64,000 bases of DNA from Arenicola marina (taxonomy: Eukaryota; Annelida; Polychaeta; Arenicolidae): positions 30,932,254 to 30,996,253 of the forward strand of contig OZ025260.1 in assembly GCA_964019135.1 (NCBI GenBank), in the 5' to 3' direction. The notes beneath the pieces were generated by a model. That model had not been told where the DNA came from and did no database searches. It saw nothing but the letters and a program-made list of their open reading frames with translations. The position numbers were made by a program, and so were the translations under genes. Each line of letters starts with the position of its first letter. Position 1 is the first letter of the stretch. Below, piece by piece: positions 55,376 to 61,300 of the stretch.

Positions 55376-58300
55376 CTGCGGGGAGAATGGGGTCATAACA
55401 ATAAGTATATATGGCATGGTTCACGTTTATTCAGTAGTTTGGGCACAACGCCCCCGGTACGTATGTATATATACAATAGTCACACTGTTTTCACCAATAG
55501 CTGTATATGCAGATGTGGCACTTCCAATACTTAAAATCGTTCATCCATGCTGCCTAGCGGGACCCACTCGTGAACCACTGGCAGTATAGCTCACGTGTTA
55601 CTCACGATACACTAAAATAAACCTGTGGGGACCATGCCAACGAACATGAGTACGAGTATGACTGTGGAGTGGAAACATTAGGCAGGTGGCGGCCGTGAGA
55701 GTGGGTCGGGGCAGGTGGTAGGAGGTGGTCAGAGGGGTCGGGGGCGGGAGGGGGGGGGGGGGAGGGGGGCTCACCTGTTACACAGCACCACCCTGGGGGG
55801 CTCCTCGCCCATCTCGACGATGTCGCAGGCCGGCGTGACCCTGAGGGAGGTGCCCAGGCAGATGACGAGGTCGTTACGCTTGGCGTGTTCCTCGGCCGCC
55901 GATAACACCTTCTTCTCCAGACTGTCGCCGAAGTTGATGATGGTGTTCATCAGGAAGCCATCGCAACCCTGTAAGGAGGAGGGTGGGGGGTGGGGGCCGG
56001 GCATAAAAGCAACCTACTTACATTCGCCATCTTAGATTTCTTACATTTTAAAATCAAACCTAAAAGTATCTCAAAATTATGATGCATATGTTTCATATCT
56101 CGTTCTAGCGAGCCGCGGTCGATATCACACAGTATACCGAACAGCGAACAGGCGCGCAGGGATACAGAGCCGGCCACCAACTTCTGCTCTGGTGAGCAAA
56201 TTTGCAAATCTCCGGATAGCCCACAGGCTTTCAGGATTTAAATTTAAGACAATTTAGAGAACATAGTACTTTAGATAGGGGTACTCAGACACATGTGTCA
56301 AGGGAAAGGCAAGAAACAATGGAACTAAAGTAACCATTTTATATTTGACCAAGAAGCACATATATTATTGTTTAGTTTTTTTGTCTGACCCACGTTATTG
56401 GGCGATTTCAATCTGCAGCAACCGTCCGTTTTTATTCTCCACCTCAGCCAACCTCCGACCGATGGTGGCGCTGCTGTATAACGTTCGCGTGCAGCGGGCC
56501 GTTATGATCCATTCATACACACTACGGTAGTGACCTGATCGGGGCAATCTTCCGGTGGATCTACCGCTTACAATAAGCTTTCGTAATAAATGACCATTAT
56601 ACACGTATCGGCCTTCCATACCCGCCCTCTCCGGGCCCGACAGACTCACCTTCCGCTCACACATCCGTCCGGTGCGGTGGTCGAAGTGGCAGTGGACGCA
56701 GATCCTGGGGGTGACCTTGCCGCCGCGTGACCTTCGCACCGCGTAGGGACGCTCGTAGCGCGCCCCGCACTTCTCGCACCTCTCGTGGTACGAGTTGCCG
56801 TGGAGCTCCGAGATCTTGTCGCGAGCCACGCCCGAGAGTCGGTGGAGGCCGTCCGTGTTCTGGCTGATCACGTGCTTGATGTAGCCCAGCTCCATCAGCT
56901 TGTAGATGGCCTCGTGCGTGTAGGTCGGTCGCAGCTTCTCGAAGACCACGTCGCGGGACTGCTTGGACCGCCTGACGCCTGCGGGTCACGTTAATTAATG
57001 ATGTAATAACTACTGGTCTACGGGACTGCTTGGACCGCCTGACGCCTGCGGGTCACGTTAATTAATGATGTAATAACTACTGGTCTGCTGGATTGCTTGG
57101 ACCGCCTGACGCCTGCGGGTCACGTTAATTAATGATGTAATAACTACTGGTCTACGGGACTGCTTGGACCGCCTGACGCCTGCGGGTCACGTTAATTAAT
57201 GATGTAATAACTACTGGTCTACGGGACTGCTTGGACCGCCTGACGCCTGCGGGTCACGTTAATTAATGATGTAATAACTACTGGTCTACTGGACTATTTG
57301 GACCGCCTGACGCCGGCGGGTCACGTTAATTAATGATGTAATAACTACTGGTCTACGGGACTGCTTGGACCGCCTGACGCCTGCGGGTCACGTTAATTAA
57401 TGATGTAATAACTACTGGTCTGCTGGATTGCTTGGACCGCCTGACGCCGGCGGGTCACGTTAATTAATGATGTAATAACTACTGGTCTACGGGACTGCTT
57501 GGACCGCCTGACGCCTGCGGGTCACGTTAATTAATGATGTAATAACTACTGGTCTACGGGACTGCTTGGACCGCCTGACGCCTGCGGGTCACGTTAATTA
57601 ATGATGTAATAACTACTGGTCTACTGGACTATTTGGACCGCCTGACGCCTGCGAGTCACGTTAATTAATGATGTAATAACTACTGGTCTACTGGACTGCT
57701 TGGACCGCCTGACGCCTGCGGGTCACGTTAATTAATGATGTAATAACTACTGGTCTACTGGACTATTTGGACCGCCTGACGCCTGCGGGTCACGTTAATT
57801 AATGATGTAATAACAACTGGTCTACGGGACTGCTTGGACCGCCTGACGCCTGCGGGTCACGTTAATTAATGATGTAATAATTACTGGTCTACTGGACTAT
57901 TTGGACCGCCTGACGCCTGCGGGTCACGTTAATTAATGATGTAATAACTACTGGTCTACGGGACTGCTTGGACCGCCTGACGCCTGCGGGTCACGTTAAT
58001 TAATGATGTAATAACTACTGGTCTACGGGACTGCTTGGACCGCCTGACGCCTGCGGGTCACGTTAATTAATGATGTAATAACTACTGGTCTACGGGACTG
58101 CTTGGACCGCCTGACGCCTGCGTGTCACGTTAATTAATGATGTAATAACTACTGGTCTACGGGACTGCTTGGACCGCCTGACGCCTGCGGGTCACGTTAA
58201 TTAATGATGTAATAACTACTGGTCTACTGGACTATTTGGACCGCCTGACGCCTGCGGGTCACGTTAATTAATGATGTAATAACTACTGGTCTACGGGACT

Positions 58301-61300
58301 GTTTGGACCGCCTGACGCCTGCGGGTCACGTTAATTAATGATGTAATAACTACTGGTCTACGGGACTGCTTGGACCGCCTGACGCCTGCGGGTCACGTTA
58401 ATTAATGATGTAATAACTACTGGTCTACGGGACTGCTTGGACCGCCTGACGCCTGTGGGTCACGTTAATTAATGATGTAATAACTACTGGTCTACTGGAT
58501 TGCTTGGACCGCCTGACGCCTGCGGGTCACGTTAATTAATGATGTAATAACTACTGGTCTACGGGACTGTTTGGACCGCCTGACGCCTGCGGGTCACGTT
58601 AATTAATGATGTAATAACTACTGGTCTACGGGACTGCTTGGACCGCCTGACGCCTGCGGGTCACGTTAATTAATGATGTAATAACTACTGGTCTACGGGA
58701 CTGCTTGGACCGCCTGACGCCTGTGGGTCACGTTAATTAATGATGTAATAACTACTGGTCTACTGGATTGCTTGGACCGCCTGACGCCTGCGGGTCACGT
58801 TAATTAATGATGTAATAACTACTGGTCTACGGGACTGCTTGGACCGCCTGACGCCTGCGGGTCACGTTAATTAATGATGTAATAACTACTGGTCTACTGG
58901 ACTGCTTGGACCGCCTGACGCCTGCGGGTCACGTTAATTAATGATGTAATAACTACTGGTCTACTGGACTGCTTGGACCGCCTGACGCCTGCGGTCCACG
59001 TTAATTAATGATGTAATAACTACTGGTCTACTGGACTGCTTGGACCGCCTGACGCCTGCGGGTCACGTTAATTAATGATGTAATAACTACTGGTCTACTG
59101 GACTGCTTGGACCGCCTGACGCCTGCGGGTCACGTTAATTAATGATGTAATAACTACTGGTCTACTGGACTGCTTGGACCGCCTGACGCCTGCGGGTCAC
59201 GTTAATTAATGATGTAATAACTACTGGTCTACTGGATTGCTTGGACCGCCTGACGCCTGCGGGTCACGTTAATTAATGGTGTAATAACTACTGGTCTACG
59301 GGACTGCTTGGACCGCCTGACGCCTGCGGGTCACGTTAATTAATGATGTAATAACTACTAGTCTACGGGACTGCTTGGACCGCCTGACGCCTGCGGGTCA
59401 CGTTAATGGTGTAATAACTACTGGTCTACGGGACTGCTTGGACCGCCTGACGCCTGCGGGTCACGTTAATTAATGATGTAATAACTACTGGTCTACGGGA
59501 CTGCTTGGACCGCCTGACGCCTGCGGGTCACGTTAAAAATTAATGATGTAATAACTGCTGGTCTACTGGACTGCTTGGACCGCCTGACGCCTGCGGGTCA
59601 CGTTAATTAATGATGTAATAACTACTGGTCTACTGGACTGCTTGGACCGCCTGACGCCTGCGGGTCACGTTAATTAATGATGTAATAACTACTGGTCTAC
59701 GGGACTGTTTGGACCGCCAGACGCCTGTAGGTCACGGTAATTAATGATGTAATAACTACTGGTCTACTAGACTGTTTGGACCGCCTGATGCCTGCGGGTC
59801 ACGTTAATGATATATTAACTACTGGGCTACGGGACTGTTTGGACCGCCTGACGCCTGCGGGTCACGTTAATTAATGATGTAATAACTACTGGTCTACGGG
59901 ACTGCTTGGACCGCCTGACGCCTGCGAGTCACGTTAATGATGTAATAACTATTGGTCTACGGGACTGTTTGGACCGCCTGACGCCTGCGGGTCACGTTAA
60001 TTAATGATGTAATAACTACTGGTCTACTGGACTGCTTGGACCGCCTGACGCCTGCGGGTCACGTTAATTAATGATGTAATAACTACTGGTCTACTGGACT
60101 GTTTGGACCGCCTGACGCCTGCGGGTCACGTTAATGATGCGATGCTAATCAATATCATCATCAATTTTTTTTATCGGTTTAAATCATATATGCATACATA
60201 TCACGATTTTCAACTACACCCGTTGAACACTTAAAACACCAGAATATATAAACACGCACTCAAATTGATTATTTTTTTATTATTATTAGTTTTATTGTTA
60301 TTATGATCAATAGGTTTTTCACGACGCGGTGATGACGTCACTCACCGTAGGTCTTCTCCCGGTCGCGCTCTGTCCACTTGCCCGCCTTCCCCCGGAAGTC
60401 ACCGATACCGGCCGAGGTGGAGATACCGGCACCTGGGGACAGTAAAGTACGGAATGGGATCGTCGGAATAGGAATTTAAAAAAATATATACATTTTAGTT
60501 ATTTTATGAGGTTCACGTCAACAAATAAAGGTTTGGAAGGGGTAAATGGCGACACGCGACACAGGCATATTTCAAAGATCGACATTCGAAATAACCCCAA
60601 AATTCCGACACTGAGGATCTAAAAAGGCCACAGATTTTTGAAAAAAACGACACTGATCACTGGAGTGTTCCAGACCCCTAAAAATGCTCATAATAATATT
60701 CATCCAAATAAAATCTCTTTTTTTGGCCCCATTGTAATGAAGGCTAAACAGAGCAAAAAGTAAAGCAAATGTCACAAACAGAAAGTCGTGGGATCGAATC
60801 CTGATCAGTGCATATGGAGCATGTATGTTCCATTGAATCCAAATGTTAACCCGATCAATTCCGGCCCACAAATCGGCTTAAAACATGTTGTTTTATTCGC
60901 CTTATATTAATGCTGAATATCGGCACCTCGCGAATAAAGACATAAAAAAAAACTTTATCCTGCACAAATATAGACATTTACACACACATGGGGCTCGAAC
61001 CCCGCACCGGTCGCTTTAGGTGACTGGCAGATCACACGCGACAATGTCCACGCTACGTAATAAGCGATAGATTACGTAATAAGCGTAATCTATCTATCTA
61101 TATATCTATCTATCTATCTATATGATTAAGCGATGTTTCATGCCACCTTTGTGCCCACACACACACCCACCTGTAAAGACGATGGCGTACTTGGCAGCCC
61201 GCAGCACCTGCGCGATGCGCCGAGCCTCCAGCCGGACCTTCTCGTGGGAGTCGAAGTACTCGGCCGTTTTCTTGGCCTCCAGCATCATGTCCTTCTCCAG

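Follow-up and report, generated by a model that had tools for sequence, protein, structure and literature searches.

A minisatellite spanning the intron/exon junction in a sirtuin gene of the annelid Arenicola marina

Intron 2 of a sirtuin gene of the polychaete annelid Arenicola marina consists almost wholly of one minisatellite, and the 67-bp unit of this array spans the junction between the intron and exon 3. The gene is read from the minus strand within the window, the name used here for the whole stretch of 64,000 nucleotides that was analysed (assembly GCA_964019135.1, 42-Mb contig OZ025260.1, positions 30,932,254 to 30,996,253). Tandem repeats laid over an intron/exon boundary were given the name "mirages" in amphioxus Adh3 (PMC3087553). 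The unit of the sirtuin array spans such a boundary and most copies keep the AG of the acceptor, two features of mirages; its length also falls inside the range of 10 to 160 bp of amphioxus mirages. The array is likely to be a mirage-type minisatellite in an annelid, a by-product of neutral repeat growth that is tolerated since the body of the exon picks its own acceptor.

Structure of the array

Tandem Repeats Finder (TRF) called the array at positions 56954 to 60135, with a period of 67, 47.6 copies and 95% matches. Splitting the minus strand into units gave 48 copies, comprising 47 decoys and, last, the copy that holds the real acceptor. The intronic part of each unit is about 42 nt long and closes with an AG acceptor (CCCGCAG), to which exon 3 sequence is directly joined; the exonic part copied by the array is the initial 25 nt of the exon (56954 to 56978). 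Successive units are spaced by 67 bp (43 times), 63 bp (three times) or 70 bp (once). A 17-nt intronic piece, drawn from the array itself, had 47 matches with at most three mismatches, against 0.26 expected. An earlier note, made from the letters alone, had described about 47 decoy acceptors in a 67-bp array in sirtuin intron 2, and this description agrees with both counts. The start that it gave (56954) stands, whereas its end (60137) is moved to 60135 by TRF. It also held that every unit contains the full junction, which is correct for the 25-nt exonic part and for the AG in 45 of the 47 decoys, but not for units 41 and 43, which read CCG instead.

The gene itself has five exons and belongs to the SIR2 family. 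Exon joining on the minus strand placed the coding part of exon 1, from the ATG, at 61171 to 61552, exon 2 at 60346 to 60432, exon 3 (329 nt) at 56650 to 56978, exon 4 at 55775 to 55968 and exon 5, including the stop codon, at 55171 to 55375. The joined open reading frame (ORF) is intact and encodes 398 amino acids, which match the SIR2 domain of Pfam (PF02146) at 97.9 bits against a curated cut-off of 24. The nearest solved structures are those of SIRT6, first, and SIRT7, second, and the protein is thus SIRT6/7-like. Intron 2 (56979 to 60345) is 3367 nt long, with its donor (ACG/GTGAGT) at 60345 and its real acceptor AG at 56980-56979, while the other three introns measure 738, 681 and 399 nt. 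From the coordinates, only about 200 nt of intron 2 would be left without the array.

There are 22 unit types among the 47 decoys, although the type of the first decoy includes intron sequence from outside the array edge. The commonest type has 12 members, the real copy among them, and 11 of the 47 decoys are identical to the real copy across 67 nt (43 nt before the acceptor and 24 nt after it). At the upstream edge, the 5'-most decoy (60094 to 60135) shows a single TTAA in place of the TTAATTAA of most units. The single TTAA recurs in units 4, 6 and 12, and TTAATTAA is found in the remaining units and at the real acceptor, slightly altered in units 7 and 10; this state holds in 43 of the 46 interior units. 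Units 21-24 are repeated as units 25-28, an outcome that fits unequal exchange or slippage of several units at once. A true higher-order repeat of four to five units was rejected, as this block is the single case and the lowest p value among ten lags (0.045, at lag 7) fails correction for ten tests.

Such variety bears on whether the copy number was inflated or collapsed in assembly. Array copy number is difficult for any assembly, but 22 unit types with point differences, together with the three 63-bp spacings and the one 70-bp spacing, are unlike the product of one looped unit, and further long arrays occur in the same assembly. An artefact is therefore highly unlikely.

The copy at the 3' edge, which is the real site, equals the array consensus, while the copy at the 5' edge has nine differences in a comparison that includes intron outside the array. 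Mean differences from the consensus were 1.5 in units 2-13 and 0.38 in units 14-47 (p = 0.095, not significant), and the rank correlation of unit divergence with position in the array was not significant either. If the single TTAA is the older form, the working acceptor carries a state that spread in the array; repeated contraction of TTAATTAA is the alternative direction. Should the TTAATTAA state of the working acceptor have come from the array, a functional splice site would be under concerted evolution with a satellite.

The array appears to be private to this gene. Among the best-scoring candidates from the 867-Mb assembly, a 501-base query returned ten matches, all from this same array, and no copy elsewhere was found. 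A dispersed satellite that invaded the gene is consequently not supported, since within those candidates the array was matched at the sirtuin locus only.

An origin at the junction itself, which the earlier note had listed as one of two possibilities, is favoured by the 22 unit types, by the repeated four-unit block and by two further gene-boundary arrays described below. The founding duplication would simply have happened to span the intron/exon junction, and the unit would then have multiplied on the intron side by unequal exchange or slippage. Growth is expected on that side because copies there leave the protein unchanged.

Decoy acceptors and the choice of the real site

The fate of a transcript spliced to the wrong copy was determined by scripted exon joining with each of the 47 decoys, the two AG-less ones included. 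All 47 led to a premature stop. For 46 of the decoys it falls inside the array, and for decoy 47, which lies one unit before the real site, the stop met first is a TGA in exon 3 (56659-56657). The earlier note had placed a TGA near 56657 for this decoy and stops within the array for most deeper ones; the former was recovered, and the latter applies to all of the other 46.

These stops are the first point in favour of a splicing rheostat, in which decoys rival the real acceptor, a constant fraction of transcripts ends as nonsense and enters nonsense-mediated decay (NMD), and array length sets the dose of sirtuin. Kinetics could also favour the 5'-most decoy, which is some 230 nt away from the donor and is reached by transcription about 3.1 kb ahead of the real site. 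A Caenorhabditis elegans minisatellite is over-represented near alternatively spliced regions (PMC4039745), a reason to keep a role in splicing under consideration. However, a stop is unremarkable, as many deep intronic acceptors would give one: a premature stop is a common fate of intronic acceptors and no evidence for regulation. The AG itself tells against a rheostat, with two variant cells in 92 across units 2-47, compared to the roughly 1.7 that the average rate in the intron part would give. The decoy AG is thus neither purged nor specially kept, with no sign of being preserved above other intronic columns. Published amphioxus mirages are said to leave splicing undisturbed, and in the sirtuin gene the donors in the array are weaker than the gene's own and the pyrimidine tract is weak. 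A rheostat is accordingly an unlikely explanation. The control of dose through NMD suggested in the earlier note has nothing in its favour beyond the stop that decoy use would bring.

Donor strength was scored as a simple count of matches to the 9-nt donor consensus. The best 9-mers in the array score 7/9 at two places and 6/9 at 45, against 8/9 for the donor of exon 2 and 9/9 for that of exon 3, which reads AAG/GTGAGT at 56649. As no donor in the array equals those of the gene, an exon starting at a decoy most likely needs exon 3's own donor. The acceptor side is poor. Pyrimidines make up 0.56 of positions -20 to -5 in the real acceptor flank (unit 48, 56979 to 57020, identical to the array consensus), the lowest of the four acceptors of the gene (0.75, 0.94 and 0.81 in the others), and each decoy alone is therefore weak. 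Furthermore, because 11 decoys match the real copy at all 67 nt, any preference for the real acceptor must come from outside that stretch.

It is probably through exon 3 and its donor that the real acceptor is chosen, to judge from the sequence. In a model of exon definition with exonic enhancers, the remaining 304 nt of exon 3 and its strong donor would mark the real site. Decoys would be mostly silent because they have no good donor downstream inside the array, and rare use of a decoy would give a nonsense mRNA that is removed by NMD. The array itself would then be close to neutral.

A repeated micro-exon, formed if decoy acceptors pair with weak donors within the units to add short peptides to the loop before exon 3, would make a different use of the same signals. 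Many units have 24 nt, a multiple of three, between the acceptor and a GTAGAC, and in an alignment with SIRT6 the junction sits where the window protein has extra residues. Yet the GTAGAC donor scores 4/9 and the exon would be extremely short, which leaves this proposal extremely improbable.

Two other ways of dealing with many acceptors were rejected. An RNA hairpin hiding them is not indicated, as the one 91-nt stretch that was folded, which includes the real junction, does no better than shuffled sequence (z +0.96; 166 of 200 shuffles equalled or exceeded its stability). Recursive splicing requires AG/GT, and the junction reads AG/GCGTC, without GT. No known RNA family was found in the window at gathering score.

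Arrays at other gene boundaries

A second sirtuin gene has an array at the opposite kind of splice site. Among 18 SIR2 exon matches in the genome, arrays across a splice junction were seen in two, the window gene and a gene for SIRT5 that is read from the minus strand of contig C10. The SIRT5 array is a donor-type mirage of 22 copies of 17 bp (locus L026, 1220-1591). Its unit carries CAG/GTATGT, and it follows directly after an exon ending in GGYWRKWQAQ, the identity of which is given by a match with E 7.8e-21 and 45 of 45 residues aligned. Eight exact copies of AGGTATGT are present, the real donor counted, and the next exon (DLATP...) lies about 0.9 kb downstream. With an acceptor and a donor mirage in two annelid sirtuin genes, mirages may arise wherever minisatellites abound. 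The same pair of genes could be taken to extend the rheostat, with 45 AG decoys set against a single productive acceptor, a fast-changing repeat number that tunes the loss through NMD, and the SIRT5 donor array working likewise; this extended form is slightly less likely than the rheostat on its own.

The second gene-boundary array is at a kinase locus on contig C19 (L045, 2238-3663), where a 107-bp repeat in at least 13.6 copies runs on until the locus ends. Its unit takes in the final part of the last coding exon together with the stop codon and the sequence next to it. Splice sites are therefore not singled out by these arrays.

Kinase and globin genes were surveyed for comparison. Thirty kinase loci were cut out of 122 matches, several being on small contigs that are probably from a ciliate, and the test listed only arrays overlapping the match-bearing ORF; two loci cut by contig ends (L038 and L043) lie outside the proper test. 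Within this ORF-overlap listing no array known to span a splice junction was seen among the 30 kinase loci, with the arrays of L052-L056 and L060 overlapping ORFs but uninspected. In the six globin loci, cut out of 29 matches, there was no array over a junction as far as seen. Only at L070 did a listed array overlap the match-bearing ORF, and this is a coding repeat in its tail: the globin-matching ORF has a long tail with a nine-residue coding repeat, KCPVTATVA (1979-2143). Arrays at L021 and L019 were rejected as junction cases because, as read here, they end about 44 and about 30 nt from the acceptors.

In four 10-kb stretches of the genome, placed arbitrarily, minisatellites with a period of at least 10 make up 0.395, 0.011, 0.089 and 0.166 of the sequence. 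In the window they make up 0.376, and one of them, with a 17-bp unit, extends for about 9 kb (18985-28136). Where minisatellites are this abundant, some would be expected to begin at an exon edge or to extend across one. The junction was thus probably captured as a side effect of minisatellite growth, in a genome rich in such repeats.

An array may also act at the DNA level, as an enhancer, recombination hotspot or chromatin element, with its splice sites as passengers. Human SIRT3 has an intronic variable number tandem repeat (VNTR) with enhancer activity, which counts in favour of such a regulatory VNTR. In earthworm metallothionein, minisatellites in intron 1 are discussed as possible marks of intron-mediated enhancement or recombination, in passages that do not place the units over the junction (PMC12783039). 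Against this stand the match of the sirtuin array at one locus only among the best-scoring candidates and a genome full of unrelated arrays, and a regulatory VNTR is as improbable as the simple rheostat.

Several points weigh against neutral growth of a tolerated array. Variation is lower in exonic columns 1-16 than in the intronic columns (2 of 16 variable compared to 21 of 43; Fisher p = 0.015), which plain neutrality does not predict, although the p value is only a guide because the copies are related by descent and the columns were divided post hoc. Use of the nearest decoys would add only 67 nt, or a small multiple of this, to exon 3, an outcome that exon definition alone need not prevent. 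Splice choice in this gene is a reading of its sequence, and the junction survey covers few loci with a crude test.

Other features were seen in the window and the assembly. A stretch in sirtuin intron 3 (about 56090-56240) and one upstream of exon 1 (about 62150-62300) look similar by eye, in opposite orientation, with CCGGCCACCAACTTCTGCTC in one and its reverse complement in the other; the pair is perhaps a dispersed repeat. On the plus strand of the window, 42906-43529 is an open frame that carries the start of a homeodomain, which we take to be like that of the ParaHox gene Xlox/Pdx. Elsewhere, kinase matches with in-frame TAG/TAA and no TGA are found on small contigs (C232, C330, C443, C465, C497, C504, C609, C652 and C684), which probably belong to a ciliate companion or contaminant. 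Dozens of kinase matches with ORFs of about 300 amino acids, most without in-frame stops, are on contig C3, mostly at 45-57 Mb, and contig C5 has five kinase copies at a spacing of about 8.5 kb (5.40-5.44 Mb). The AAA family has 21 matches in the genome. The mitochondrial contig (C762) encodes, on one strand, cox1, cox2, atp8, cox3, nad6, cob, atp6, nad5, nad4L, nad4, tRNA-Val, large-subunit rRNA, nad1, nad3 and nad2, presumably the common annelid mitochondrial order, which speaks against a lancelet as the source of the DNA. Pfam identified ten frames besides COX1; nad2 was named by its place, as the family is common to nad2, nad4 and nad5, and atp8 and nad6 were named by eye.

Comparison with known systems

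The closest relatives of the sirtuin array are in amphioxus. Passages of PMC3087553 report mirage units of 10-72 bp with somatic instability in Adh3, and units of 150-160 bp at either boundary in two globin genes (BflGb6 and BflGb9), with six and three units in the two haplotypes of BflGb6. According to the same source, RT-PCR (reverse transcription PCR) of Adh3 and the globin genes suggests no interference with regular splicing, while its authors consider that the signals could serve as cryptic sites. A PGBD5 mirage of two to seven units was added in PMC3902484, where troponin C (TnC) is cited and splicing is described as undisturbed in TnC too. As in the sirtuin array, the units described span the junction and many keep the AG/GT signal. 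The sirtuin array differs in being from an annelid, a protostome, and in having 47 decoys as opposed to three and six units (BflGb6) or two to seven (PGBD5). Normal splicing and haplotype or somatic instability are reported for amphioxus mirages, whereas the sirtuin array is known from the sequence of one assembly.

Human CBS provides two parallels. One is 844ins68, which duplicates 68 bp across an intron/exon junction and in which splicing strongly prefers the more distal site (PMC2630376). Like the sirtuin unit it duplicates a junction and is of nearly the same size, but it is a single extra copy and a human polymorphism. The other is a 31-bp VNTR in CBS, which has an effect on splicing. Its name in the part of PMC2630376 that lists it, c.1444_1467+7(16_21), places an array of 16-21 copies over the end of an exon and 7 nt of intron. 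In contrast to the sirtuin array, this repeat is on the donor side, has a 31-bp unit and is polymorphic in people.

Internal tandem repeats in human duplicated genes, some at exon-intron boundaries, have been proposed as a source of introns (PMC2812944). These share minisatellite expansion with the sirtuin array and differ from it in belonging to recent primate paralogs, with 53 exon against 27 intron modifications.

Judged by titles and the starts of abstracts, open-licence PubMed Central (PMC) literature yielded no annelid mirage, the earthworm paper PMC12130307 being judged by its listing alone. Mirages are natural experiments on splice-site choice. The sirtuin array is a real and striking structure of the kind known from amphioxus, and within the searches of open-licence PMC literature it brings mirages to a new phylum.

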